Assembly (NCBI GenBank): GCA_032622095.1
Contig: CP136061.1
Span: forward strand, 253,469,582-253,533,581
Length of the DNA: 64,000 bases
Source: Siphonodentalium dalli
Taxonomy: Eukaryota > Mollusca > Scaphopoda > Gadilida > Siphonodentaliidae
Reading direction: 5' to 3'
Position numbers and translations under genes: made by a program. Positions 11,700-62,280 of the stretch are shown piece by piece (positions within the stretch are counted from its first letter, which is position 1; every line of letters begins with the position of its first letter). The notes under the pieces were generated by a model, which was not told the origin of the DNA, made no database searches, and saw only the letters and a list, made by a program, of their open reading frames with translations.

Positions 11700-12119
11700 G
11701 TGGTTTAAGTACGGGATATTCCCCTAGCAGTCTCTGTGTTTATTATAACGTTGATAGCTTTGTCTTATGAACCATAATTATGCAACCTGTAATAACTAGT
11801 CTGAAACAGTAACTGCATATATAGGAGGATTAGCCTTTGTCACATGCTGGTTAAAATGTTGAAACATTGATTTATCAAAGTGCTTTTTTAATAGAAAAGA
11901 TGCCGACTAATGGACGCTAGTTATATGGGCGTCAGGATTCCTGTTCAGATGTAGTGGCTGGTGGATCTTCACAATTAGAGTTGTGGTGCAGTGATTTTCC
12001 ACAGCCGCCTATCTCCGTACAGACACAGTATATTGTAGCGCCACGGTAACGGTTGGTGCCAATTTGATCAAGATTCCTTCAGTTCCCTAAACGGATTATA
12101 ACAGGTTCGCGATGCTAAA
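11700..12119 (+). promoter_or_regulatory. Class B upstream block of receptor gene 12120-13172
   Basis: This aligns with 38346-38667 upstream of the other class B copy: TGGTTTAAGT, TAGCAGTCTCT, CATAATTATG, ACTGCATATATAGGAGGATT, CTGTTCAGATG and AAAATG at the start codon. It is unlike the class A blocks. CATATATAGG at about 11815-11824 is a possible TATA element, but no transcription start can be assigned. Confidence 0.55.
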
Positions 12120-13172
12120 ATGACACATTCAATGAAAAACACATCAATGGAAAGTCAGCTGCCATTTAACGAGAATTCAGCCACCAACGTTACAACCACA
12201 GATACCACGAATTCGACTTTAGGCATTGTTCAACTGATACTGGTTTTCGTTGGGACTATCGGGAATGTTTCGATAATAATTGTATTTACTCGTTCTACGA
12301 TGAGAAGAAAACGGTCTTCGTTGTTGTTTCTTGCATTGGCGATAGCAGACCTTGTTCCACTTTACATTAGTTTGCTGCCCGCTGCGATCAACATAATAGC
12401 CAATTGGAACATAGTTACTGTGAGTGACGCATCTTGTAAAGCATACATATTTCTGAGCTATTCTTCTGTAGATGTCTGCGCCTGGATTCTCGTTATACTG
12501 GCTGTCGATCGGACAATACACGTGTGTTGCCACACAAAGAGCTTTTCATTTTCCAGCAAGAAGTCAGTATTCAGTGGAATTGTGTTCGTTGTAATTGGAA
12601 GTCTACTGGCGAATTGTCACTTGTTTTATGGACTACAATTATCTACGGGTTCTGATAATCAATTGGGTATTTGTATCATTACCGGGACGACAGAGTATGT
12701 CTGGTTTGTCATTAACGTCTGGTTTTGGTTGCATGTTGTTAAGTATTCATTTATTCCAGTCATCATTATTGCATCCTGCAACACTCTACTCATTTTCCAT
12801 ATCAGGAAAACAAAAAGAGCCCTGAAATATTTCACAGGGAGCAACGACCAAGGGAGACAAGGAGAAAAAGCGACATCATCGACTTCGCTGATGCTGATAG
12901 CAACGAGTTTCCAACTCCTGGTGACAGCAACGCCACTGACCATAACAATGGCAATCAACAAAGAAGATTTAAGCTTTTTCGGGACCACTGTTGCTAGTGT
13001 TCTGGTGACACTGAATATGTCTAATAACTGCTTGAACTTTTTCACGTATATTATAAGTAGTAAGAAATTCAAAGCCGAACTATGGCGTGTTCTGAAACAA
13101 AGCTTTCGGCAGACAATAGCTGTGGATTCTCTTGGCCTTAGAGCACAACAAATAGGCCAATCCCAACAATAG
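12120..13172 (+). CDS. Class A (rhodopsin-like) seven-TM receptor, class B copy
   Basis: A 350-residue intact ORF. The N-terminus is unlike class A copies (starts MTHSMKNTS; sequons at N7, N23 and N31). TM1 35-57, TM2 67-89, TM3 105-130, TM4 149-170, TM5 195-225, TM6 254-278 and TM7 291-313 can be laid out by alignment with 452-1531. C106 and C185 are the disulphide pair, DRT is at 130-132, TM7 has NCLNFFTY, and helix 8 is KFKAELW. The tail ends early: a 53-bp tandem duplication in the C-tail shifts the frame into TAG at 13170-13172. Sequence matching the longer tail of the 46324 gene (through CGACAACCGGAC) survives downstream. Alternative starts M5 or M10 are possible; M1 is kept because the pseudogene at 38668 has the equivalent start. 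Confidence 0.88.
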   Translation: MTHSMKNTSMESQLPFNENSATNVTTTDTTNSTLGIVQLILVFVGTIGNVSIIIVFTRSTMRRKRSSLLFLALAIADLVPLYISLLPAAINIIANWNIVTVSDASCKAYIFLSYSSVDVCAWILVILAVDRTIHVCCHTKSFSFSSKKSVFSGIVFVVIGSLLANCHLFYGLQLSTGSDNQLGICIITGTTEYVWFVINVWFWLHVVKYSFIPVIIIASCNTLLIFHIRKTKRALKYFTGSNDQGRQGEKATSSTSLMLIATSFQLLVTATPLTITMAINKEDLSFFGTTVASVLVTLNMSNNCLNFFTYIISSKKFKAELWRVLKQSFRQTIAVDSLGLRAQQIGQSQQ

Positions 13173-23240: not shown

Positions 23241-23277
23241 TGAGCAGCGCTTAAGTCAAGTAAAATTAAAATCACGT

Positions 23278-23871
23278 GCCAGCGATCAGTGTTATCATGG
23301 TACTTTCATGGAATAGACTTAAATTTGATGTAATTTGCAGCGTGTTAGCAATCAGTGTTACAATAAGGATACGTTCTCCTGAAATAGACTTCAATCGGAT
23401 GTCATTTACAGCGTGCCAGAGATCAGTGTTGCAATCAGGGTACGTTCACGGAATATACTTAAATTGGATGTAATGTACAGCGTGTCCGCGATCAGTGTTA
23501 CAATCAGGGTACGTTCACGGAATAGACTTAAATTGGATGTAATTTACAATGTAACACCGATAAGTGTTACAATCAGGGTACGTTCATGGAATAGACTTAA
23601 ATTGGATGTAATTTACAGTGCGTCTGCGATCAGTGTTACAATCAGGGTACGTTCATGTGAATAGACTTAAATTGGATGTAATTTACAGTGTGTCGGCGAT
23701 CGGTGTTACAATCAGGGTACGTTGAGGTGAATAGACTTAAATTGGATGTAATTTACAGCGTGTCGGCGATCAGTGTTACAGTGAGGGTACGTTCACAGAA
23801 TATATTTAAATCCGATGTAATTTACAGAATTTCCGCGATTAGTGTTACAATCAGGGTGCGTCGAAGCAAAT
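23278..23871. repeat. 69-bp tandem repeat array, about 8-9 copies
   Basis: The consensus contains GCGATCAGTGTTACAATCAG, GGTACGTTCATGGAATAGAC and TTAAATTGGATGTAATTTAC. Successive ATCAGTGTTA phrases at 23491 and 23560 give a 69-bp period. It precedes the upstream block of the pseudogene at 25004. The open frames of a 23-residue repeat are a consequence of the 3n period. Confidence 0.9.
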
Positions 23872-25003: not shown

Positions 25004-25940
25004 ATAGAAAGCCAACGATACTCTCATAATATAACTTCCAATGTTACAGTCATCGTTACCAGGAATGTCACAGTCACCGAAACCAGGAATGTCACAGTCA
25101 CCGATACCAGGAATGTCACAGTCACCGATACCAGGAATGTCACAGTCACCGATACCAGGAATGTCACAGTCAAACAATGGAACATAGTTACCATGAGTGA
25201 CGCATCTTGTAAAGCATATACATTTCTGACCCTTTCTTCTTCTGATGTCTGCGTCTGGGTCCTCGCTATACTGGCAGTCGATCGAACCATACACGTGTGT
25301 TTTCACCCGAACTCCTTCTTTTCCAGCAAGAAGTCAATATTCAGTGGCATTGTTCTCGTTGTTATTGGAAGTCTGCTAGGGAATTGTTACGTTTATTATG
25401 GACTAACGTTATCTACGGGTACTGATAATCAATTGGGGACTTGTGTCCCTACCGGGTAGACAGATTATGTCTGGTTTGTAGTCAACGTCTGGTTTTGGTT
25501 GAACCTTGTCAAGTGTTCATTGGTTCCAGTCATCATTGTCGCATTCTGCAACACTTTACTCATTCTCCATATCAGGAAAACTAAAAGAGCCTTGCAATAT
25601 TTCACTGGGAGCAACGACCATGGAAGACAAGGAACAAAAGGCGACATCATCGACTTCATTGATGCTAATAGCAACGAGTTTCCAACTCATTGTCACAACA
25701 ACTCCACTGGTCTTAACAATGGCAATCAGCAGTGAAGACTTAAGCTTTTTTGAGACCACTGTTGCCAAAGCTTTTGGGATACTGTACGTGGCTAATAACT
25801 TTTTCACGTATGTTATAAGTTGTAATAAATTCAGAGCCGAACTCTGGCGTGTTCTGAAACAAAACTGTCCGCATACGATAGCCGCAGATCCTATTAGTCT
25901 TAGCACAAAACAGACTGACCAACCCCAACCAACGAGTTGA
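25004..25940 (+). pseudogene. Class A receptor pseudogene
   Basis: It is homologous to the intact receptors but broken several ways. The expected ATG is ATA (25004-25006). TM1 and TM2 are absent: the N-terminal NVTVT repeat, expanded to about six copies, runs straight into QWNIVTMSDASCK of ECL1/TM3. A TAG replaces TCG at 25457-25459 after ECL2. A one-base insertion lies near 25640 (AAAAGGCGACATC). About three codons are lost at the start of TM7 (ANN-FFTYV). TM3 to TM7 and FRAELWRVLKQ are otherwise recognisable. A TIR element sits in its 5' region. It should not make a functional receptor. Confidence 0.92.
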
Positions 25941-39095: not shown

Positions 39096-39375
39096 CGACA
39101 AGTACGTCACCGAACAAATGACGGACTATCCGGTCGAATATGCAATATCATTATTATTCACAATTGAATAACATAAGTTGAAAGATTGATTTCTGACAGT
39201 TTCTCGAATGTAACACTTGTGGCACTTCATTACACAATTGGAATATCTCAGTCAGATAAATTCAATATCATTTCGCCCGAACGTAATTGCCACCACAGGA
39301 AAGGTGAATGCCAGTCTGTGTCCACAACAGAACAGAACGGTTGTTGGATAAGAATGTTATACGCAAAACAGTGAA
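39096..39375 (+). promoter_or_regulatory. Class A upstream block of receptor gene 39376-40452
   Basis: GCGACAAGTACGTCAC, GGACTATCCGGTCGAATATG, TTTCTCGAATGTAAC and CCGAACGTAATTGCCACCAC match the other class A blocks. It is shorter on its 5' side than the block of 452 because it is fused directly to the class B pseudogene. Confidence 0.6.
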
Positions 39376-40452
39376 ATGGAAATATACCCTGATAATTTAA
39401 CTTGCAATGGTTCAGTAACTGACACCAGGAATGTCACAGTCACCGAAACCAAGAATGACACAGTCACGGAAACCAGGAATGTGACTATTGGAGTTATTCA
39501 ATTACTACTTATATGCGTTGGAACTATCGGGAATGTTTTGATATTAATTGTATTTACTCGTCCGACGATGAGAGTAAAACGGTCCTCGTTGTTGTTTATG
39601 GCATTGGCGATAGCTGACCTTGTTGTACTGTACATTGCATTGCTACGCAGTGCGATCAACAGAATAGCCCATTGGGACATCGCTACCGTGAGTGACGCAT
39701 CTTGTAAGGCACACCCATTTCTGAGGTATTCGTCTGCAGATATCTGCGTCTGGATCCTCGTTATAGTAACTTTCGATCGAACCATACACGTGTGTTGTAA
39801 CACAAAGGGCTCCTTCTTTTCCAGCAAGAGGTCAGTTTTGAGTGGAATTGTGTTCGTTGTAATTGGAAGTCTGCTGGCGAATTGTCACTTGTTATATGGA
39901 CTACAATTATCTACGGGTTCTGATAATCAATCGGTCATATGCATCCCTACCGGGTCGACAGAGTATGTCTGGTTTATGGACAACGTCTGGTTTTGGATAG
40001 ATGTTGTCAAGTATTCATTGGTTCCAGTCATCATTATGGCATCCTGCAACACTCTACTCATTTTCCACATCAGGAAAACGAAAAGAGCATTGAAATATTT
40101 CACTGGGAGCAACGAGCAAAGAAGACAAGGGAAAAAAGCGACATCATCGACATCATTGATGCTAATAGCAACGAGTTTCCAACTCATGGTGACAACAACA
40201 CCACTCGTCTTAACACTGGCAATCATCAAAGCAGATTCAGGCTTTTATGAGACCACTGTTGCTGGTGTTCTTGTGACTCTGACCGGGGCTAATAATTGCT
40301 TGAACTTTTTCACGTATGTTATAAGTGGTAAGAAATTCAGAGCCGAACTCTGGCTTGTTCTGACAAAAAGCTATCGGCAGACGATAGCAGTAGACTCTCT
40401 GAGTCTTAGCACACAACAAACAGACCAATCCCAACCAGCGAGTGAATCATAA
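39376..40452 (+). CDS. Class A (rhodopsin-like) seven-TM receptor, class A copy 3
   Basis: An intact 358-residue ORF. The N-terminus (1-38) carries five sequons (N7, N11, N19, N27, N35), most within a repeated VT-E/D-TRN motif. TM1 39-61 with GN, TM2 71-93 (LAIAD), TM3 109-134, DRT 134-136, TM4 153-174, TM5 199-229, TM6 258-282 (TTTP, no CWxP), TM7 295-317 (NCLNFFTY), helix 8 KKFRAELW. C110 and C189 can pair. ICL2 and ICL3 are basic (HIRKTKRALK). The C-tail ends DQSQPASES. The start is set by paralogue alignment and AAATGG context. Ligand unknown; presumably a surface peptide or chemosensory receptor. Confidence 0.9.
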   Translation: MEIYPDNLTCNGSVTDTRNVTVTETKNDTVTETRNVTIGVIQLLLICVGTIGNVLILIVFTRPTMRVKRSSLLFMALAIADLVVLYIALLRSAINRIAHWDIATVSDASCKAHPFLRYSSADICVWILVIVTFDRTIHVCCNTKGSFFSSKRSVLSGIVFVVIGSLLANCHLLYGLQLSTGSDNQSVICIPTGSTEYVWFMDNVWFWIDVVKYSLVPVIIMASCNTLLIFHIRKTKRALKYFTGSNEQRRQGKKATSSTSLMLIATSFQLMVTTTPLVLTLAIIKADSGFYETTVAGVLVTLTGANNCLNFFTYVISGKKFRAELWLVLTKSYRQTIAVDSLSLSTQQTDQSQPASES

Positions 40453-45779: not shown

Positions 45780-46323
45780 CGTGAGTTATATACCCCTCCC
45801 CGAATGGAGATCATATAGCAACATCACTATCTCTACCACAAACGACTAAGGCAGAACTGGCATATTTTTATGTAACAACAGAAAGTAACTGATAACGACC
45901 AGGCCTCAGGGCATGGTGTCGGACATTTACAGTATGAGGTCCCCAGAGGGTGAATTTAGTGACGCTACCCCACACAGCGGGCTAACATCACTATTCCGCA
46001 GAAATCGGACAGGGCATCTGATTACAAACGAACATAGCAACTGGCGACAAGTACGTCACTAAACACATGGACTATGCGGTCGAATATGCACTGTCACTTA
46101 TTATTTCACAATAAGTGGAATAACATAAGTAGAAAGATTGATTTCTCAGTTTCTCGAATGTAACGTCAGGACTTCACTGCACACTTGGAATATCTCATTC
46201 TGAGAATTTCAATATTGTTTCGCCCGAACGTAATTACCAAACGCATGAAGGTATGTGAAATTCTGTGGACGGAACAGAACGGTCGTTATACAGGAAGGAG
46301 TACTATGCGCACACCATAGTGAA
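45780..46323 (+). promoter_or_regulatory. Class A upstream block of receptor gene 46324-47463
   Basis: This is the longest class A block with a gene attached: ACAACAGAAAGTAACTGATA, GAGGTCCCCAGAGGGTGAAT, TCGGACAGGGCATCTGATTA, GGCGACAAGTACGTCACT, TTTCTCGAATGTAAC and CCCGAACGTAATTACC. It contains the empty site (46279-46300) of the element inserted in the 25004 pseudogene. Confidence 0.6.
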
Positions 46324-47463
46324 ATGGAAAGCCAACAATACCCCGATAATTTAACATCTAATGTTACAGTCACCGAAACCAGGAATATCACAGTCACCGA
46401 AACCAGGAATGTGACTATTGGAATGATTCAATTACTATTTCTCTGTGTTGGGACTATCGGCAATGTTTTGATATTAATTGTATTTACTCGTCCGACGATG
46501 AGAATAAAACGGTCATCGTTGTTGTTTCTGTCATTGGCGATAGCCGACCTTGTTGTACTCTACATTAGTTTGCTACGCAATGCGATCAACAACATGACCC
46601 ATTGGAACATCATGGCCTTGAATGACGTATCTTGTAACGTTTATGCATTTCTTATTTATTATTCTGCAGATGTCTCCGTCTGGATCCTCGTCGTGTTAAC
46701 TGTTGATCGAACTGTTCACGTATGTTGTCATCTGAAACGCTCATTCTTTACTGGTAAGAAGTCTGTTTTCTGTGAAATTGTGTTCGTTGTAATTGGGTGT
46801 TTGCTGGCGAATGTTCACCTTATATATGGACTACAGTTATCAACGGATACTGACAATCAATTGGGGACTTGTGTCCCTACCGGAGCGACAGAATATGTCT
46901 GGCTTGTAGTCAACGTTTGGTTTTGGTTGGATGTTGTCAAGTATTCATTTGTACCAGTCATCATTATCGCATCCTGCAACACTCTACTCATTTTCCACAT
47001 CAGGAAAACAAAAAGATCCTTGAAATATTTCACTGGGAGCCACGCCCAAGCAAGACAGGGGAAAAAAGCGACATCACCGACTTCATTGATGCTAATAGCA
47101 ACGAGTTTCCAACTCCTTGTGACAACAACGCCACTGGTCTTAACACAGGCAATCAACAAAACAGATTTCAGTTTTCACGAGACAACTGTTGTTGGTGTTC
47201 TTGTGACCCTGAACAGGGCTAATAACTGCTTGAATTTGTTCACGTATGTTATAAGCGGTAATAAATTCAGAGCAGAACTCTGGGGTGTTCTGAAACAAAG
47301 CTGTCGGCAGACGATAAATGTAGAGTCTCTTGGTCTTAGCATACAACAAACAGACCAACCACAACCGACGATTGCATCACGCTCGCATCCAGGAGTCCGA
47401 CAACCGGACGTACATGTAAATGATGACATTCGTCCAGAACACACAACCAGAGAGATATATTAA
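46324..47463 (+). CDS. Class A (rhodopsin-like) seven-TM receptor, class A copy 4
   Basis: A 379-residue receptor. The ORF is open from an ATG at 46255, but the paralogues start at MESxQYPDNLTSN, so the start is placed at 46324 (GAAATGG). Sequons at N9, N13, N21 and N29 sit in a repeated NVTVTETR motif. Landmarks: TM1 GTIGNVLILIV, TM2 LSLAIADLVVLY, TM3 from NDVSCNVYAF to LTVDRT, ECL2 with GTCVPTG, TM5 WLDVVKYSFVPV, TM6 TTTPLVL, TM7 NCLNLFTYVISG, helix 8 NKFRAELW. The C-tail (to VRQPDVHVNDDIRPEHTTREIY region) is the longest in the array. It is nearly identical to the copy at 59045, which points to recent duplication or gene conversion. Confidence 0.92.
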   Translation: MESQQYPDNLTSNVTVTETRNITVTETRNVTIGMIQLLFLCVGTIGNVLILIVFTRPTMRIKRSSLLFLSLAIADLVVLYISLLRNAINNMTHWNIMALNDVSCNVYAFLIYYSADVSVWILVVLTVDRTVHVCCHLKRSFFTGKKSVFCEIVFVVIGCLLANVHLIYGLQLSTDTDNQLGTCVPTGATEYVWLVVNVWFWLDVVKYSFVPVIIIASCNTLLIFHIRKTKRSLKYFTGSHAQARQGKKATSPTSLMLIATSFQLLVTTTPLVLTQAINKTDFSFHETTVVGVLVTLNRANNCLNLFTYVISGNKFRAELWGVLKQSCRQTINVESLGLSIQQTDQPQPTIASRSHPGVRQPDVHVNDDIRPEHTTREIY

Positions 47464-47645: not shown

Positions 47646-47989
47646 GATCAGTGGTATGCATATACTATAACTTAGGTCTATATGGAACACCATAGAAGAG
47701 TTGTGACTCTCGGATTATCATTTCAGACTCAAGGTTAATTTTGTTCCGCTGATGTATTGATGTACACGTAACTGTGACAACGAAGTTGTTTTCTAATGCT
47801 CGTACACACCATGTCATTGCTACGCTGAAATGAACAAAACAACTTTGTTAATTTATCTGTTCTTTATGTATCCAAGTTTGGTATCAATTTCCAGTTAAGA
47901 CCTCGACTCAAATTTGAGATTAAGTGGAGGATGTATTTCATACTGAATTCTCTGCGTAAGTTCCATTGATCATGCTGTATAATATTCGG

Positions 47990-48690
47990 GTACATTCACA
48001 TAATATACTTACATGGGATGTAATTTGCAGCGGTCTACTGTCAGTTTTGAGTCAGGGTACGTTCATGGAATAGATTCACATTTGACTTAATTTACAGCGT
48101 ACCAACGATCAGTGTTACAATCAGGGTACGTTCATGGAATATAAATAAATTTGACGTAATTTACAGCGTGTTAGCGATCATTGTTACAATCGGGTTAGGT
48201 TCATGGAATAGACATACATTTGATGTAATTTACGGCGTGTCCGCGATCAGTGTTACGATCGGGGTACATTCACGGAATAGACTTAAATTGGATATAATTT
48301 ACAGCGTGTCCGCGATCAGTGTTACAATCGGGGTACGTTCATGGAATAGACTTAAATTGATAGTAATTTACAGCGTATCAGTGATCAGTGTTACAATCAG
48401 GATATGCTCGTGGAAAATATTTAAATTCGATGTAATTTACAGCGTTTCCGTGATCAGTGTTACAATCGGGTTACCGTCATGGAATATACTTAAATTGGAT
48501 ATAACATACACCATGTCAGTGATAACTGTTCAAATCAGGGTACGTTCACGGAATACAATTAAATTTGATGTTATTTACAGCGTGTTAGCGATTAGTGTTA
48601 CAATCGGGGTACCTTCATGGAATATACTTAAATGTGATGTAATTTACAGCGTGTCAGCGAGAAGTGTTACAACCGGGGTGCGTTCACACT
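47990..48690. repeat. 69-bp tandem repeat array, about 10 copies
   Basis: Same family as 23278-23871 (GCGATCAGTGTTACAATCGG, GGAATAGACTTAAATTGGAT, GTAATTTACAGCGTG). A 181-codon ORF at 48168-48713 is only the 3n-period repeat read through. The array begins downstream of the receptor's 3' flank. Confidence 0.9.
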
Positions 48691-48894
48691 CTCTTATATT
48701 ACATGTATTATGATAATCTCCACATTATATACTTATTCGAGAACTCGCTCAAATAATTGGACTACCCTTCCTCTGAGTGTTGATCCAGTTAGTTGTTCCG
48801 GCTTGGTAATAGGGTATAACTCACACTAAGTCATCACCTGGCAATCACGATCTGAATGGGATGTCGAACGGTTTACATATGGGAAGAACTCATA

Positions 48895-49235
48895 ATGTAA
48901 GTTCAATTGATCATGCTGTATAATATTCGGGTACGTTCACATAATAGACTTAAATGGGATGTAATGTACAGCGGCCAGCTGTCAGGTTTGAGTCAGGGAA
49001 CGTTCCTTGAATAGACTTACATTTTATGTAATCTGCAGCGTGTCAGTAATCACTGTTACAATAATAGCGCGTTCATGGAATAGACATATCTAAATTTGAC
49101 GTAATTTACAGCGTGTTAGCGATCAGTGTTACAGTCAGGATACGCTCATGGAATGAACTTAAATTGGATGTAATTTACAGCGTGTTAGCGTTCACTGTTA
49201 CAGTCAGGGTACGGTCATAGAATAGACTTAAAGGA
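48895..49235. repeat. 69-bp repeat, second block, about 5 copies
   Basis: TCATGCTGTATAATATTCGG restarts the phrase that opens the previous block at 47970, followed by diverged 69-bp units. The array plus its lead-in was therefore itself duplicated (47960 and 48905). Confidence 0.8.
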
Positions 49236-49849
49236 TTGCTATCCTCATGAAACAACAAAACTGTATCGGAAAGCCACCCCTATTGTGATCACAATGATCC
49301 AAATTCCATACAAATCGCGTAATAAATAAGCCGAGAAATAAATAAATAATACACCACCGGTTGTCTGCTATCTCCGTCGCAAAACCTCACATGACGTCAA
49401 ATGAGGTAAACTAATTAAAAACACGGAATCGGAATTAATTATGTCCACCCATATGGCGATGAAAAATCCGGAATCGACATCACTGCGTGGGTGTAATGGA
49501 AATACTGCGGGGAATGTCAATAGCATTGTGTACACGTGGTGAATTGTCATCGTGCGGTGAGTTATCTTCACTTGTGATTTGTCTTAAGTGCTGTTTGGAA
49601 AGTTATGGATTTGACAAAAACTATAGAAGGCCGATTGAGCGAGGTAGATCACACTTTCGTGTCAAAAATAAAGCTTATAAAAACACGAGCCCACATGTGA
49701 ACTCTATTCGGGTGCGTGTTCACGATGTTGTTTTAATATTCCATATATATGCCCCGAGTTTCCCGTATTTACAATCATTTATTCGTGACAATGTCAAATA
49801 AATGCAGTGTTTTCGGCTGTGGCCGGTCTACACTGCATGAAAAGTGGAA

Positions 49850-50612
49850 TTTATGCTTTGCATAAATTAGGAATAAATGAGAATAAATTTCACATTTATT
49901 CTAATTTATGCATTGCATAAATTTGGATAAATTCCGAAATTTATTGGAATTTATTCTTGAATTTATGCTTGAATAAACTTCCAAATTTACAGAAAATTTA
50001 CACAGCATAAATTTCAATAAATTTATGCAGATTTATGCCATGAATAAATTTCGAAAATGCAGATAAATTTCGAAATTTATCTACATTTATGCCATTAATA
50101 AATGTGGATGGGCAGTATAAATGTAGATAAATTTCTCCACATTTTCAAATTTCTGCGCAGATGAGATTTATTAACATTTAAATGGTCAAGAGATTCGGAT
50201 GGTCGGTATAAATGTACATAAATTTCGAAATTTATCCACTTAAATTTCGAAATTTAACCAATTTATCGACATAAATTTCGAAATTTATCCAAATAAATTT
50301 CGAAATTTATCCACTTAAATTTCGAAATTTATCCACATAAATTTATCCACTTAAATTTCGAAATTTAACCAGATAAATTTCGAAATTTATCCACATAAAT
50401 TTCGAAATTTATCCACTTAAATTTCAAAATTTAACCAGATAAATTTCAAAATTTATCCACATAAATTTCGAAATTTATCCACATAAATTTCTAAATTTAT
50501 AGACATAAATTTCATAATTTATCCACATAAATTTCGAAATCAATTTCTAAATTTATCCAGATAAATTTCTTTATTTATCTAGATAAATTTCTAAATTTAT
50601 CCAGATAAATAG
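49850..50612. repeat. Left subterminal repeat region of the CACTA-like element
   Basis: There are many copies of ATAAATTTCGAAATTTATCC, mostly spaced about 20-22 bp, each palindromic around TTCGAA. Earlier, more irregular AATTTATGC/GCATAAATT motifs lie nearer the tip. Confidence 0.9.
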
Positions 50613-50962
50613 CCCACACACCACTCACCCATTGTTGGGATCAGCAATCATTTATCGCATGGTATGTGCAGCTGCTGACAAAGGATAACAATCTCAGCTG
50701 GTATCCTATCTGTATGTTTATTAGGCACTGATAAAAGTTGTTTCTGTGACCCTGTTCCGGTATTATAATTTAGAGCATCCGCATATGCCAAATACCACTA
50801 AAGACATATAATATAATGCACAAGGGAGGGTAAATTAAATGTGCAATTCATATATGACAGTACAGTTCCCAATATGGTATTTAGTGAAAGGATCAACAGA
50901 AGAAAAACTGGTAATTTTAGCAACTACTATAAGTACTATCAATCTTCAGGTCTCCAATTAAA

Positions 50963-51438
50963 GGTACTCAACCCGTAAAGAGGGTCCCCATCTCAACAGA
51001 TTCCAACAACAACAATCCGATCAGAGGGTCCTATATTACTATTTCTTTGGCTTTGGGGGTAAAAAATATTTGATTCGAGTCGAGGAACCGATCAAACAAA
51101 GCTCAGAGTTATTAGATATTGATTTTTCAAATTTGTTATGTTCTCGAGATGAGTACTAATAACTGCCGTAATCTGCTCTGGATGTGTACTCCAAATCTAT
51201 TCAAACAGACAAGGATGAATAACTCTAAAATCAAGTGGTAATTTTAACGCAATTTTGACTGAGTTCTGGGCCAGATAGTATTCCCGATAATGAAAAATAA
51301 TAGATTTCTAAAATCGATATCTAACAAATCTGAGCTTTGATGGGTGACTTCCTCGACTCGAATCAAATATTTTTGACCCCCGAAGCCATTGAAATAGTAA
51401 TTGAGAGGAGTTTTATCGGGTTGAGTACCTTTAAACAT
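50963..51438. repeat. Large imperfect inverted repeat inside the element
   Basis: The left arm (AAAGGTACTCAACCCG, TATTTGATTCGAGTCGAGGA, AAAGCTCAGA) is inverted in the right arm (CGGGTTGAGTACCTTT at its outer end, TCCTCGACTCGAATCAAATA). The left arm has an extra GAGGGTCC-bounded insertion. A 71-codon minus-strand frame in the right arm resembles no family I know. Confidence 0.75.
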
Positions 51439-52596
51439 ATACAAGTTGGTGAATTTCAATGTAATTACATTGCATTAAATTTTGACGTAAATTCATTAAC
51501 ATCTGGCGTACTCATTCTAAAAGACTAAATTTAACATTGTGATGGGAATTCAAAATATACTTTCAACTTTCACTGCCGACTTGCAATTGGTTATGTTAAG
51601 TTCTAAATCTTTGGTTGGGGCTATCCTGTGCTACATGAAGAAGACAAGAACATATATATATTAATATCTCTTTAATGTAGTAAATAATATACTTAATGTA
51701 GTAAATAATAGACAAGAGACCCCTTTCGCATAGTGAATGACAACAGATCATTAAATACACATATATGTACAGAACGGCATGAGTGTTAGCGCGGCCAGAT
51801 ATAATAAGAGGCACAGCCTCAAGTTCTATCCTTCCGCAATGGCACAATTGCCATATTAACCAAAATGATAAATTTTCTCAATAATCCAATACATTTAGTA
51901 TATATTCCACACCATTGTACCACAGAGTTGTACATTTATGTAATTTAAAGGTAACATTGAAATTTAATCTATTTTTCCTAGCCCATGATGTGTCCATGTC
52001 CAATCTAGCTACCAAACTTGGTATGTGTCTTTATCAGCCAAATATACAGTTCAAGTACGGTTCAGTCCAATAATGTTATTGCCCTTGTTCGACTTGTACA
52101 ATTTCATAACATTTTGGTTTATGACCGACAACCCCAATTTGGATTAAAAATAAAGCAACACATATTTGTCTCAACCAAAAGGCTGGACTAGAAAAGGTAT
52201 AAACTTTATCACTGCAACTAATTATAACCCCACTTGGTGAAGACTAAATCACACTGGAAGTGAATACATGTTCCTCAATGTATTTCACAGTAGATGAAGG
52301 TGGGTCTCATATCAAGATAGCATGATTTATATGACTTTCAATTGTAATGATTCATAGTGAATTGGCTCACTAAATCATGTAATCTTGAGCTGGACATTCC
52401 TGTTATGTGAAATACATTAACATGGTTAGCGAACACAGCAGGTGAAGGCCAGCCTCCAATCAAATTGGCATGATTTATGTGGCTTTCGATAGCCCATTTC
52501 GTGAACAAATTTAATTACATGACTGCAATTTTGCGAGAACCCTTTCCAAAGTATTCTCTTAATGTTATGTGTCGCCCATAGGACCCTAACTTATAT

Positions 52597-52690
52597 GAGA
52601 GAATGCATTGACCGAACAATATTCACCATGACCTTGTAAGTCAGTACATTCTCTTATATATGCGAGGATCCCTGAGAGACCGCATATATG
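52597..52690. mobile_element. Decayed hairpin-MITE fragment
   Basis: GAGAGAATGCATTGACC and TACATTCTCTTATATATGCG are diverged arms of the MITE hairpin. Beyond it lie repeats of CGCCGTATTCCA/GGTATTCGGTATTCC (52720-52790). Confidence 0.5.
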
Positions 52691-52935
52691 AGGCCCCACC
52701 CCCTTTTCGTACGCCGTATTCCATGCCCTGTTATGAGGTACGCCGTATTCCAGCCCTTTGTTAGGAGGTATTCGGTATTCCAAAAATACTGGTATTCGTA
52801 CGCAGGCCTTCCAAAAAATGAAGTTTTCATATATTTTTATGTATTCCGTATTCCACCCTCTGTGTTAAGTTGTATTCCGTATTCCATGGGAGGTGGTGCA
52901 GGGGCCTCATTTATGAGAGCACTCACTGGCGTAGG

Positions 52936-54275
52936 GGGAAGATGTCTATTCCGAAGGTTCGCTATTCTGAAGGTTCACTATTCCGAAGGTTCACTATTCC
53001 GAAGGTTCTCTATTCCGAAGATTTTTTTTATTATAAAGGTTAATTCTATATTCTAAAGTATTGAGAGGGTTCATTATCACGAAGACTCTTTTTATGAAGG
53101 AAATAACTTAAAACATTGAAACAATAAATGTGACTCTTTTTTCGCGGGTTTCCCACTGGGTTTCCTTGACATTAAGTATGCCGTTATTTCACAAAACATA
53201 TTCACGTCAGGCAGCCCACACAATTGCTATGTTTCCATACAATTTAATGTCTTCACGTATGACGTTATATCTCAATAATCTTAGAGGCAAGAATACGCCA
53301 GCTAAATGCGGATTAAAACAGTGGGGCTATAACTCTTAATGAATACTGCGTAGCAGAATGTCGTTGAATAGACGGGTATGAGATTAACCTAACTGCAATT
53401 GTGAATTTTTATTGAATTTTAAGGCCCACTTAATTTTCGAGTCACCGACTATTTTTTTATAACAATCTGTGCCATAAAATATGATTGAAACACTATAGTT
53501 CATCACCAGTTGAAACGTCTGTATCCGAAGATGCCCATAGACAAATAGAAAACAGCTTAAATCATAAAATGATTCCCCCCGTTATGGCTCCCAGAATGCA
53601 ACAGAATTCAACCTAATGTATTTTCAATTGAAGGGGAATAACACTATCTTTAATATAGAGTTATTCCCCTCCAATGAAAATAATACACTTTGCGCAACAA
53701 AACCAGATGAACGTTAAGCACAAAAATACGTCGTTAACTCAACAAAAACAACATGTTCACAGTTTATTACACCCGATAAGCTGATAATACAGTGTTATAG
53801 AGCTTCCTGTTTCCAATGGTATATATACTGGCATATATTTTATATATGTGATCTGGGGGTTCGATAATTAAGTGGGCCTTTAATGTTGATGTTTCTTTCA
53901 AATACAGATTGCCAGTTCGGAAAAAACTATATCTCTTACCTGTAGTTTATTTCAGTCATCGTGTTTTCAACTTTCCATAATAAACGATAAACTGATACTG
54001 TCTTTTTGCTATTAATAACCAACGTCTGAGACAATTTGGGAATTAGACGTGGGTGTATACATGTACAATAAGTGAATACTAGCGTAATAGTAGTTTTCAT
54101 TCCTCGTGTGGTTTTTGTGTTGGGGTGCAAATTCTGATTCATTTCTGGTTAAATACGCCCAGAACAGAAAACCTTCAGAATAGCGAACCTTCGGAATAGC
54201 GAACCTTCGGAATAATGAACCTTCGGAATAGCGAACCTTCGGAACAATGAACCTTCGGAATAGAGAACCCTACCC
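52936..54275. mobile_element. hAT-like element nested in the CACTA-like element
   Basis: Flanked by an exact 8-bp duplication GGCGTAGG (52928-52935 and 54276-54283). Ends begin GGG...TCTATTCCGAAGG and carry tandem TTCNCTATTCCGAAGG repeats that are inverted at the right end (CCTTCGGAATAGCGAA). No transposase. It hosts a further TTAA element. Confidence 0.8.
53423..53878. mobile_element. 456-bp TIR element nested in the hAT-like element
   Basis: Ends GGCCCACTTAATTTTCGA and, inverted, TCGATAATTAAGTGGGCC, flanked by TTTAA on both sides (piggyBac-like TTAA). A central hairpin with arms TTCAATTGAAGGGGAATAAC and GTTATTCCCCTCCAATGAAA lies at about 53618-53687. Confidence 0.72.
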
Positions 54276-54433
54276 GGCGTAGGATATGTAATGCATCACC
54301 AGCGCATCTCCCGTCATTAAAGGGTTAAACCCGCTGGATATTGTAATGATAACAGGTGAAACAGGCCCAATAAATCATGTAATCTTGAGGTAGACATTCA
54401 TATGATGTGAAATTCATGGTTACCGAACAGGTA

Positions 54434-54526
54434 CAAGTCTGCTTGTACCCACACCAGCTAGGATATTTGAATAACGAGCATGTCCACATCCAAATATCCT
54501 AGCTGGTTTATGTACAGGTAGACTTG
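54434..54526. repeat. 93-bp hairpin
   Basis: The inner arms ACCAGCTAGGATATTTG / CAAATATCCTAGCTGGT are perfect. The outer arms CAAGTCTGCTTGTACC / GTACAGGTAGACTTG are imperfect. It lies inside the CACTA-like element. Confidence 0.85.
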
Positions 54527-54879
54527 GACTAGTACTGGCTAAGAAATTTGTAACATGTATTTTGTTATCTTCAAATCTTTTATCTTCAAACAGTTCCTAG
54601 GTTTTGAGCTAATGGTATTCTCTTTTGGTACAAAGTAAGCAGTGGTCATATGGCTTCCACCTCAAAATTCTTCTGATTTTTAGCACTGAAAAATGGTTCT
54701 TATTTATCCATCTATACATGGAACTTTGAAACAAAATTAAGAGTGTTCCAAAAAGAATGACACTACATATGTGCTGAAATTTGGCGCCTTATGTTTCAAT
54801 GTTAATTTGCACAGTGCATAATCATGCATGTTGCCACATCTGAGTTCTAAAATTAGGATAATTTTAAAACCATTATAAA

Positions 54880-55600
54880 TTAGGTGAATGGAATTTAGAC
54901 ACAATTTATTCTAAATTTATGCCATGACTAAATTTAGAAAAATGAGGATAAATTTCGAAATTTATTAAGATAAATATCGAAATTTATCCATATTTAAAAA
55001 AACATTTCATGATATAAATGTAGTTGAAATTTACTAACATTGATGTCAGATCAATTTGGATGGTCAGTTAAATGTAGATAAATGGAAGTTTATCCACATA
55101 AATTTTGAAATTTATCCACATAAATTTAGAAATTTATCCACATAAATTTTGAAATTTATCCACATAAATTTTGAAATTTATCCACATAAATTTTGAAATT
55201 TATTCAAATAAACTTTGAAATTTATCCCCATTTGCTTAATTTATGTCATAAAGAGCGTTTATATCTCGAATTCGCAGAATTCTGAAACATATGTAAGACG
55301 ATCCCAAAGTTATGACACTATGAAAGTGTTGAAATGTTGTCCCTTGGATTTCAACATTCATGTAAAATTTATGCAGTGCATAAATTTTGTTAAACTCCAG
55401 AATCATGCCAGATCTATTTTGTTCGAAATCTGGAATTTCAAATTTAGGGAGAATTTATTCGCATTTATTCACTTTGTGAGGAAGAATAAATGTGAAATTT
55501 ATGCATATGCCTAAATTTCAAATTTAGGATAAATTTATGCCGTTGTAAATTGTGTACATGGAATTTAGGCATAATTTATTTTTTTGTAAATTCCTCTTTT
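54880..55600. repeat. Right subterminal repeat region of the CACTA-like element
   Basis: ATAAATTTTGAAATTTATCCAC repeats cluster at 55080-55230, with looser AATTTATGC motifs to the tip. Mirrors the left subterminal region. Confidence 0.85.
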
Positions 55601-55761
55601 CATGCAGTGCTAGTGACTCTCAGTTAGGTATAATTCTGCATTTAATTCCAGAGGATGTTCTTTTACGTGACATTTGGCGGGATTTCTGTGGGGAAACCCG
55701 TTGCGCAAAATCAGAAACTACATACAACATACATATATCAAATAAAGAGCGTTTAGTTTGA

Positions 55762-56394
55762 CGAGTCAGTCATGGTTACGAATACATACAATTGCAGTTA
55801 AAGTGGGGAGTATGTTGAAGAATAATTTTGTAAAGTATTCACGATGACAACTATTCTAAGTCGAGTCCCCAATTTCCTTCACCACCACTCAATAAAGGGC
55901 GTTTCATGTTAAGATTATTCCTAATCAAGTCCGTAGACAGCCACTAGCAAAGACAGTTCGTCATTTATAATTAGAGCATTGGGCACGAGCTGCGAAGCGA
56001 CGAGAGGGGGTGTCGCCTTACTATCGCATTGAGGGTGGGTTCGCGCCCCCCTTTCGGGGAGAATTTTGATAAAATACGAAGCAAACGACGTACCGGTAAT
56101 TTAGATCCGCCGTGACACAAAAGTCTAGCTTCGATTTTTCCAAGTTTTCTCTCACACGCCTGGAATTGAATTGTATCAAAATAGCCTAGCTGTTCTAAAT
56201 GAACCAATTGTCTAGTGGGGGACTAAGTTCCGACTAACATAATCCACTGCATGGGCCGTCGAGACTTCGAACCAGTATCTGACAAGTTTGTGACCTAAAC
56301 CTGGAAATTGCTAAATCTATAGTTGTCTATCTGCAGTGGCATCCCCCCGATTTGTTTTTCGGACGTTAATTATAAGTTTAACTGACCTTATGGG
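55762..56394. other. DNA downstream of the THAP exon, no exon recognised
   Basis: No further THAP exon is visible. A 78-codon minus-strand frame (55971-56207) has no family signature. A GC-rich patch (GCGCCCCCCTTTCGGGG) lies near 56044-56061. Confidence 0.4.
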
Positions 56395-58609: not shown

Positions 58610-59044
58610 CACTCTATCTCTACCAGAAACGACTAACTGGCATATATTCATTTAACAACAGAAAGTAAATGGCAGCGAAAGAATGAGAATGCGATGCCCA
58701 GAGTGTGAATTCAGTGATGCTACCCCGCACAAATCGGACAGGACATCTAATTACACACGAAAAATAACAATTGGCGACAAGTACGTCACTAAAGAAATAG
58801 AGGAAATATCCGGTCGAACATACAATATCACTTATTATTTCAAGTGAACGACATAAGTTGAAAGATTGATTTCTAACAGTTTCTCGAATGTATCAACAGC
58901 ACTCCATTGCACACTTGCAAACTCTCATTCAGAGAAATTCAATATTGTTTCGCCTGAAGGTAATTACCACCACAAGAAAGGCATATGTGGACGGAATAGG
59001 ACTGCCTTTAGACAGAAACGAGTACTATCGCACACCGCATTGAA
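58610..59044 (+). promoter_or_regulatory. Class A upstream block of the receptor copy at 59045
   Basis: TCTCTACCAGAAACGACTAA, TTTAACAACAGAAAGTAA, GGCGACAAGTACGTCACT, CCGGTCGAACATACAATATC and GGTAATTACCACCACAAGAA match the other blocks. Small deletions distinguish it from 45780-46323. Confidence 0.6.
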
Positions 59045-60184
59045 ATGGAAAGCCTACAATACCCCGATAATTTAACTTCCAATGTTACAGTCACCGAAAC
59101 CAGGAATGTCACAGTCTCCGAAACCAGGAATGTGACTATTGGAATTATTCAATTACTATTTCTCTGTGTTGGAACTATCGGGAATGTTTTGATATTAATT
59201 GTATTTACTCGTCCGCCGATGAGAATAAAACGGTCATCGTTGTTGTTTCTGTCATTGGCGATTGCCGACCTTGTTGTACTCTACATTAGTTTACTCAGTA
59301 ATGCGATCAACACCATGACCCATTGGAACATCAAGGCCTTGAATGACGTATCTTGTAAATTTTATCCATTTCTTATCTATTATTCTGCAGATGTCTCCGT
59401 CTGGATCCTCGTCGTGTTAACTGTTGATCGAACTGTACACGTATGTTGTCATCTGAAAGGCTCATTCTTGTCGGATAATAAGTCTGTTTTCTGTGAAATT
59501 GTGTTCGTTGTAATTGGGTGTATGCTGGCGAATGTTCACCTGGTATATGGACTACAGTTATCAACGGATACTGACAATCAATTGGGGACTTGTGTCCCTA
59601 CCGGATCGAGAGAGTATGTCTGGCTTGTAGTCAAAGTTTGGTTTTGGTTGGATGTTGTCAAGTATTCATTGGTTCCAGCCATCACAATCGCATGATGCAA
59701 CGCTCTACTCATTTTCCATATCAGGAAAACAAAACAAGCCTTGAAACATTTCACTGAGAGCAACGACCAAGGAAGACAAGGAAAAAAAGCGACATCATCG
59801 ACTTCATTGATGCTGATAGCAACGAGTTTCCAACTCCTTGTGACAACAACTCCACTGGTCTTAACAAGGGCAATCAACAAAACAGATTTCAGTTTTTACG
59901 AGACCACAGTGTATGGTATTCTTGTGACACTTAACAGGGCTAATAACTGCTTGAATGTTTTCACGTATGTTATAAGCGGTAATAAATTCAGAGCAGAACT
60001 CTGGCGTGTTCTGAAACAAAGCTGTCGGCAGACGATAACTGAAGAGTCTCTTAGTCTTAGCACACAACAAACAGACAAACACCAACCGACGAGTGCATCA
60101 CGCTCGAACCCAGGAGTCCGTCAACCGGATGTACATGTAAATGATGACAATCGTCCAGAACACACAACCAGAGAGATATATTAA
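59045..60184 (+). pseudogene. Class A receptor copy, full length except one in-frame TGA in TM5
   Basis: The reading frame is collinear with the 379-residue receptor at 46324 from MESLQYPDNLTSN to the final REIY, with no frameshift. At 59693-59695 TGA replaces the TCC serine codon of TM5 (IASCN in paralogues). This requires two adjacent base changes. The N-terminal sequons, C-C pair, DRT, TM6 TTTP, TM7 NCLNVFTY and helix 8 are all kept. It is probably a very young pseudogene. An assembly error, a polymorphism or readthrough are alternatives. The upstream portion alone would give a 216-residue protein ending in TM5. Confidence 0.85.
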
Positions 60185-60689: not shown

Positions 60690-62280
60690 TGCTGTATAAT
60701 ATTCGGGTACGTTCGCATAATGTACTTAAATGGGGTGTACTTTACAGCGGTCAGTTGTCAGTTTTGAGTCAGTGTACGTTCATGGAATAGACTTAAAGTG
60801 ATATGAAACACTCCGGTAGGGTGATCGATGTTAAAGTGATATGAAACACTCCGGTCAGATATACATGTAAAGGGAGATTAATCTTGTTCAAAGTAGAAAT
60901 GATTACAAATATTATATCAAAATTGACAACACACATCGTCATTCATATATATTAATTAAATGCAGTGACTCTCGATGGCGAAATCGTTTTCGTTAGTTTA
61001 TCGCACATAGATGCGTCTCGCATCGAGATGTAAATATTTACATGTGACCGTACTTCAGACGATGTTTCTATGGAGTGTTACTTTTGATTTACTTCAGATT
61101 TCCGGCGATATAAGTAGAATGATACATTCCTCCAGTTGAAATAGCGCCTGGATACTAACGTATCAGTTTCACGCACACGACAAGTACATAATATATCTTT
61201 AAATTGGATGTAATTTACAGCGTGTTAGCGATTAGTGTTACAATCGGGGTACCTTCGTGGAATAGACTTAAATTGGATGTAATTTACAGCGTGTCAGCGA
61301 TCAGTGATACAATCGGTGTACGTTCGTGGAATAGACTTAAATTGGATAAAATTTACAGCGTGTTAGCGATTAGTGTTACAATCGGGGTACGTTCGTGGAA
61401 TAGACTTAAATTGGATATAATTTACAGCGTGTTAGCGATTAGTGTTACAATCGGTGTACGTACGTGAAATAGACTTAAATTGGATGTAATTTACAGCGTG
61501 TTAGCGATCAGTTTTACAATCATGGTACGTTCATGTGACACACATACATCGGATGTAATTAACATGGTGTCCGCGATCAGTTTTACAAGCAGGGTACGTT
61601 CATGGGATATACTTAAACTGGATGTAATTTACCGGGTATCCGCGATCAGTTTTACAAGCAGGGTATGTTCATGGGATAGATTTAAATTTGTTGTAATTTT
61701 ACAGCATGTCAGCTATCAGTGTTATGATCAGGGCAAGGTTGTGGAACAGACTTAAATTGGATGTAATAATCTGCTTCTCAGCGGTAATTGCTACAGCCAT
61801 ATTACGTTCATGGAATATATTTCAATTGGGTGCAATTTGCAGCGTATCTAGAATCAGTGTTACAATCAGGGAACGTTCATGGAATATATTTAAATTGGAT
61901 GTTATTTACAACGTGTCCGCGCGATCAGTCTGACAATCAGGGCACGTTTATCGATTATACCCAAATTGGACCTAATTTACAGCGTGTCCGCGATCAGTGT
62001 TACAATCAGGATATGTTCATGGAGTATACTTAAATAGGATGTCATCTACAGCGTGGCAGCGGTCAGTGTTACAATCAGGGTGCGTTCATGTGATAAATTA
62101 AATCAGATGTAATTTACAGCGAGAGCGCAACCAGTGCTACTATCAGCGTACGTTCACGGAATTGACTTAAATTGGGTGCAATTTACAGCGTGTCCGCGAG
62201 CAGTGCTACAATCAGGGTGCGTTCATGGAATAGACTTAACTCGGATACACTTTACAGCGCGTCCGTGATCATTGACATCC
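60690..62280. repeat. 69-bp tandem repeat array, about 17 copies, with one insertion
   Basis: About 1.5 copies at 60700-60795, then a 400-bp insert (60795-61198) that matches 33975-34330, then about 15.5 copies to 62280. Units near 61204-61470 are the most uniform and those after 61750 more diverged. Short ORFs of a 23-residue repeat are artefacts of the 3n period. Confidence 0.9.

Follow-up and report, generated by a model that had tools for sequence, protein, structure and literature searches.

EnSpm/CACTA transposons have terminal inverted repeats (TIRs) that start with CACTA or CACTG and make target duplications of 2 to 3 bp, and the termini of hAT transposons follow the consensus YARNG. 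Kolobok transposons and T2-MITEs, in the available parts of two accounts, duplicate TTAA and have AG... termini (5'-RR) (PMC6004289, PMC9587614). The nesting of transposons has served as a relative clock for families under the name transpositions-in-transpositions (TinT), as the accessible portion of its description sets out (PMC3014933). The stack that we describe here, in a window of 64,000 nucleotides (the whole stretch of DNA that was analyzed) from the genome of Siphonodentalium dalli (2.23 Gb, 9 contigs), belongs to kinds already known: a deletion derivative of an EnSpm/CACTA element, with passengers that it inherited, sits in a Kolobok-type relic, and the whole is ordinary, well-documented transposon stratigraphy. 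We read it mainly from the inside out, with a probability of roughly 0.9: a TTAA-type element entered an element that duplicates 8 bp, the pair entered an EnSpm element, the loaded EnSpm element was amplified, and one of its copies landed at this locus.

Table 1. Features of the stack and its surroundings (positions within the window)
Feature	Position	Strand	Basis or remark
Receptor-like frames	449-1531, 12102-13172, 25004-25940, 39352-40452, 46249-47463, 59012-60184		By eye
69-bp minisatellite array, deepest host of the stack	47988-49232	.	TRF
Non-autonomous Kolobok-type transposon, left part, TTAA then AGGATTGC...	49228-49830	+	Homology to full element C3_134
THAP relic, first 13 codons	49791-49830	+
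Target duplication CTA, left	49828-49830	+	Uninterrupted in paralogues
Outer element (EnSpm/CACTA, shortened by an internal deletion), 5,779 bp	49831-55609	+
Left subterminal 22-bp repeat array of outer element	50216-50610	.
Second TTAA insert, AGGTACTCAACCCG ends	50963-51430	+	TTAA at 50959-50962 and 51431-51434
Internal-deletion junction of the window copy	51857-51864	+	Comparison with C6_229
8-bp target duplication GGCGTAGG, left	52928-52935	+
8-bp-duplication element, 16-bp subterminal repeats	52936-54275	+
Innermost element, TTTAA duplication	53423-53878	+	TTTAA at 53418-53422 and 53879-53883
8-bp target duplication GGCGTAGG, right	54276-54283	+
Right subterminal 22-bp repeat array of outer element	55085-55231	.
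Target duplication CTA, right	55610-55612	+
Kolobok-type element resumes	55613-55925	+	THAP relic remainder to 55761

The outer element was called CACTA-like in the earlier note, and this description is borne out. Its TIR is perfect over 14 bp (CACTGCATGAAAAG at 49831, CTTTTCATGCAGTG at 55609), and its family resembles EnSpm/CACTA (CMC) elements in its CACTG termini, 3-bp target duplications, subterminal repeats, Transposase_21 in long members, and internal-deletion derivatives. Seven copies besides that of the window were read to both ends, and all eight complete copies have 3-bp duplications (CTA, TCT, TCT with the same flank, TCC, GTA, TAA, ATA, and TAC), which represent seven distinct sites because copies C6_229 and C3_145 share flanks. 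The left end begins with CACTGCATG in six of the seven other complete copies and with CACTGCACG in C8_130. Matches of 97 to 100% to this end occur at 26 other places in the genome among the matches listed, and since 24 of them start at window positions 49829 to 49831 (two start further in), the outer end is the boundary of a family and not a product of chance. The right end is matched at 96 to 100% over nearly its whole length by 32 others among the matches listed. Transposase_21 (PF02992) was recognized in a 1,016-aa frame at C6:199682009 (55.2 bits), inside a 36-kb outer copy (C6:199657281-199693540), and in a frame with one internal stop at C3:245963166 (49.6 bits), inside a 33-kb copy (C3:245941135-245974004). 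No Transposase_21 match is listed within the window copy, which lacks about 2.6 kb relative to C6_229 at a break marked by TAAC microhomology; because the missing segment is present in C6_229 and others, the window copy is a deletion derivative. The family departs from EnSpm/CACTA elements in the lengths of its copies, 2.6 to 36 kb when the ends are paired by coordinate, and in its passenger, an inherited 8-bp-duplication element with a TTAA insert, the two together being referred to here as the nest; both Transposase_21 copies also bear it.

Three frames of outer-family copies gave no match above cut-off in Pfam. The first of these, a reverse-strand frame, MDFMSSEEDCSDNETV... (L010-L011), recurs at 88 to 100% in 19 places and partially in a twentieth. 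It is also found elsewhere at 38 to 41%, in several cases with Transposase_21 no more than about 20 kb away, and is possibly a second EnSpm gene. At two related loci (L049 and L050), no transposase exon was recognized by eye on the forward strand of 10 kb each. One outer copy (L046-L048, C1:150025400-150047940) holds a retroelement with frames that by eye resemble a reverse transcriptase and a tyrosine recombinase. Copies C6_229 and C3_145 (L005 and L006), on different contigs, are 99% identical with their short flanks included, a likeness that reflects either the duplication of a segment or two insertions into one kind of repeat.

The middle element duplicates 8 bp, a length as in hAT, in the window and again in L014, a copy outside the outer family that has its own duplication, GGTATGAT, and holds the innermost element at the same place. 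We did not adopt the hAT-like label previously given to it: its ends, GGGAA... and GGGTA..., start with GGG, unlike YARNG. Other loci of this element beyond the outer family have no listed outer right end nearby, as judged by coordinates alone. The ends of the innermost element fit equally well with a TTTAA duplication (5 bp) and GGCCC termini or with a TTA duplication (3 bp) and AGGCCC termini. When the innermost insert was removed from the query, 10 of 40 among the matches listed ran through the junction; a single, unoccupied TTTAA is present in all four fetched copies of the 8-bp element (L042-L045), and the insert is missing from more distant relatives. At all nine fetched places outside the outer family, among the matches listed, the innermost element is flanked by the 8-bp element, which continues from it on at least the right side. 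A separate copy, L017 (C4:229764900-229766900), has a further insertion, flanked by an 8-bp overlap at the equivalent of window positions 53876 to 53883, where the innermost element ends on its right. The ends and target duplications that the earlier note had assigned to three levels keep their coordinates, and paralogues show the empty sites; its count of four levels overlooked the second TTAA insert and, underneath the Kolobok copy, the minisatellite.

The nest is not peculiar to this locus. Among 33 close right ends (96 to 100%, window included, among the matches listed), 18 have it 1.7 to 2.1 kb inward, as placed by coordinates in the match lists, C6:13731823 through the query that lacked the innermost insert, with eight of the 18, window included, also read as sequence; what C4_55 and C8_130 retain of the 8-bp element is its right half, with the TTAA element. 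The remaining 15 right ends were fetched and read, and nine have an empty site for the 8-bp element, while in six other sequence displaces the nest site, which was scored neither empty nor filled. At eight junctions the empty site is a single GGCATAGG or a close variant of it, and two empty copies at C7:185 are nearly contiguous across the site. A tenth empty copy beyond the 33, C4_4 (L009), matches part of the outer right end at 98% and joins both flanks of the 8-bp element through a single GGCATAGG; it was read and, being left-truncated, left out of the target-duplication count. The second TTAA insert is carried by the window copy, C6_229, C3_145, C5_44, and C1_150 and is missing, with a single TTAA in its place, from C4_55, C6_82, and C4_4, and C8_130 is without the whole region. 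Because the inner insertions are common to many outer copies, they are older than the landing here.

In a midpoint-rooted tree of outer right ends, the eight nest-bearing copies read split from ten empty copies with moderate support (0.88), and the five copies with the second TTAA insert group together (support 0.97). All six site-displaced copies, among them C5_111 and C1_272, are placed with the empty ones, a placement that comes from one short segment with nearby supports of 0.1 to 0.8. C5_111 has a nest match 5.8 kb inward and C1_272 has one 20.8 kb inward, and if these matches belong to these copies they would break a single origin of the nest; a nest match 17.7 kb from C6_16353 is that of the neighboring copy, C6:16337464. 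These two discordant copies, together with the common flanks of C6_229 and C3_145 and a pair of copies at C3:32.67 and C3:32.92 Mb that resemble a duplicated segment by coordinates, speak for a history in which the loaded element did not transpose and the nest was passed among outer copies through gene conversion or segmental duplication, but the 3-bp duplications of all eight complete copies, at seven distinct sites, make such a history improbable.

Divergences bear on the order of the layers. Over two segments of the 8-bp element, copies borne by outer elements lie 0.3 to 1.5% from the window copy, copies elsewhere 4 to 12%, and unoccupied copies 11 to 14%, and the branch to the outer-borne group measures 0.039 with a support of 1.0. 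The terminal branch of the outer copy in the window is 0.0024 versus 0.049 for the Kolobok copy; this shorter outer branch and the shared inner insertions make the landing here the last dated event. The timing of the Kolobok insertion relative to the inner insertions assumes a neutral clock. The innermost insertion is the first of the dated events inside the outer element. The order had been thought readable directly from the nesting, with the outer element going into a THAP exon first, the hAT-like element next, and the TTAA element last, all at this locus. The nesting geometry and the intact duplications at each level are in keeping with that order, but 17 further close outer copies have this nest equally far in, the 8-bp element carries the same insert outside the outer element (L014), and the divergences point the opposite way. 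That local order could be rescued only by conversion of the 17 other loci from the window locus, and we regard it as very unlikely.

The sequence into which the outer element inserted belongs to a Kolobok-type family, complete copies of which are 2.27 to 2.29 kb long (n = 4 read). A query of 1,963 bp from this family is matched nearly end to end in 15 places, the query copy included, among the matches listed. The ends TTAA-AGGATTGC...GCATTCCT-TTAA were found in four of four left ends and four of five right ends (the fifth has TTCAA), and in a further set of left ends 10 of 12 begin TTAAAGG (L030 and L035 differ). So far as the available parts of the published accounts describe them, Kolobok elements and T2-MITEs share with this family the TTAA duplication, the AG... 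termini, and the THAP domain of a longer relative, L051; of the T2-MITE motif AGGRR as given there, the left end of the window family (AGGAT) departs from it and the right end (AGGAA) fits. The window family differs from Kolobok elements in being non-autonomous and in having half a THAP domain. The first exon of L051 encodes a whole THAP domain (PF05485, 54.4 bits), for which the closest solved chain is that of THAP2 (2d8r, E 2.4e-6); its putative DDD/E catalytic core is seen in Pfam only below threshold, as downstream frames that match the Mutator-like PF20700 at 18.3 and 15.2 bits, below the cut-off of 26.5. L051 aligns with the short family over 728 and 575 positions at 87 to 89%, and the approximately 260 bp between these stretches that the short family is missing are the place of the second THAP half.

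All 15 of the paralogues that cross the CTA site do so without the outer insertion, and the expected continuation from 49830 to 55613 is thereby seen in paralogues; the letters at the site are mostly ATA, with CTA in L035 and L036 and CTG in L001. Rejoined with one CTA, the exon has an open frame of 62 aa that matches the Pfam THAP profile over positions 1 to 47 of 87 (E 5e-4) at 21.2 bits, a weak pass, under the curated cut-off of 23.9; the two unjoined pieces gave no match to that profile. The THAP homology that the earlier note had proposed is thus upheld below the cut-off, and its host exon proves to be a half-THAP relic in a Kolobok-type transposon: of a complete C2CH domain, the C-x2-H half is absent from the rejoined relic. 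When 13 short copies were aligned with two longer relatives and the window, all 13 proved, like the window, to be without the second half of the domain; 10 of the 13 and the window also have an additional G that disrupts the frame (L035 and L036 lack it, and L033 is unscorable). No working THAP gene was interrupted: throughout the short family the domain was already only half present, and in most copies its frame was gone as well. A host THAP gene still in function, or a THAP protein that had been domesticated, which the insertion either knocked out or caused to be spliced alternatively, would account for the restored frame with its C-x4-C, P, and W and for its profile match, but it is highly improbable given that the frame lies within a TTAA-ended repeat with 15 near-full-length matches listed, that the short copies share the loss of the second half and most of them the extra G, and that the whole domain resides in L051. 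THAP-bearing repeats are abundant in this genome, with dozens of near-identical matches that have identical in-frame stops (one TGA and two TAG), and another family occurs in dozens of places, which all match the rejoined relic with one and the same score (66% identity).

The window Kolobok copy starts at a TTAA that adjoins a 69-bp minisatellite, the sequence of which extends to the left end of the copy (TRF arrays at 47988 to 48686 and 48943 to 49232). The remaining ~1.3 kb of the copy and its right end have no match elsewhere in the window; because the right end is lost (the match stops at 55925), insertion into the minisatellite is seen from the left only. Related arrays lie at 23275 to 23861 and 61186 to 62274, and the minisatellite lies in a spacer between receptor-like frames that form a tandem array. 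There are six such related frames, named as seven-transmembrane-receptor-like by eye and not by profile; those at 25004 to 25940 and 59012 to 60184 are in pieces, and the 69-bp minisatellites occur in some of the spacers.

Taken in sequence, the mainly inside-out history that we favor began when a small TTAA-type element inserted into an ancestor of the 8-bp-duplication family, as the unoccupied relatives show, and this family then spread with its TTAA insert, as copies elsewhere show. One 8-bp copy entered an EnSpm/CACTA element, as outer copies with and without it show, and the loaded lineage, transposase-coding copies among them, then multiplied. A sub-lineage gained the second TTAA element, and an internal deletion produced the short copy of the window. 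Paralogues and divergence show that this short copy jumped, duplicating CTA, into a Kolobok-type copy that was non-autonomous and by then old, and that lies, as seen from its left side, in the minisatellite between receptor-like genes. The protein that moved it was probably the Transposase_21 protein of the long copies.

Did the passengers contribute to this success? If the 8-bp element and the TTAA inserts supplied a promoter, spacing, or a second route of mobilization by other transposases, they would have made the loaded EnSpm lineage the commonest of the close lineages and turned the stack into a multi-transposase vehicle. We consider this unlikely; "commonest" refers here to 18 loaded versus 9 empty of 33 copies, found with a window-derived query that favors near kin.

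As in TinT, to the extent that the accessible part of its description covers the approach, nesting is used here as a relative clock; unlike in TinT, one insertion is present in many copies. Because the host kept moving, the nested copies are not separate events, and local nesting comes without a local order; the order that nesting does suggest for this locus is wrong, since what carries the nest can move as well. A nesting clock for local history needs an outer copy that has stopped moving, and the outer copy here had not. To read a local history from nesting, or to count one insertion for each nested copy, is misleading in this family, and a rejoined frame may mimic a disrupted host exon while being the relic of a transposon.
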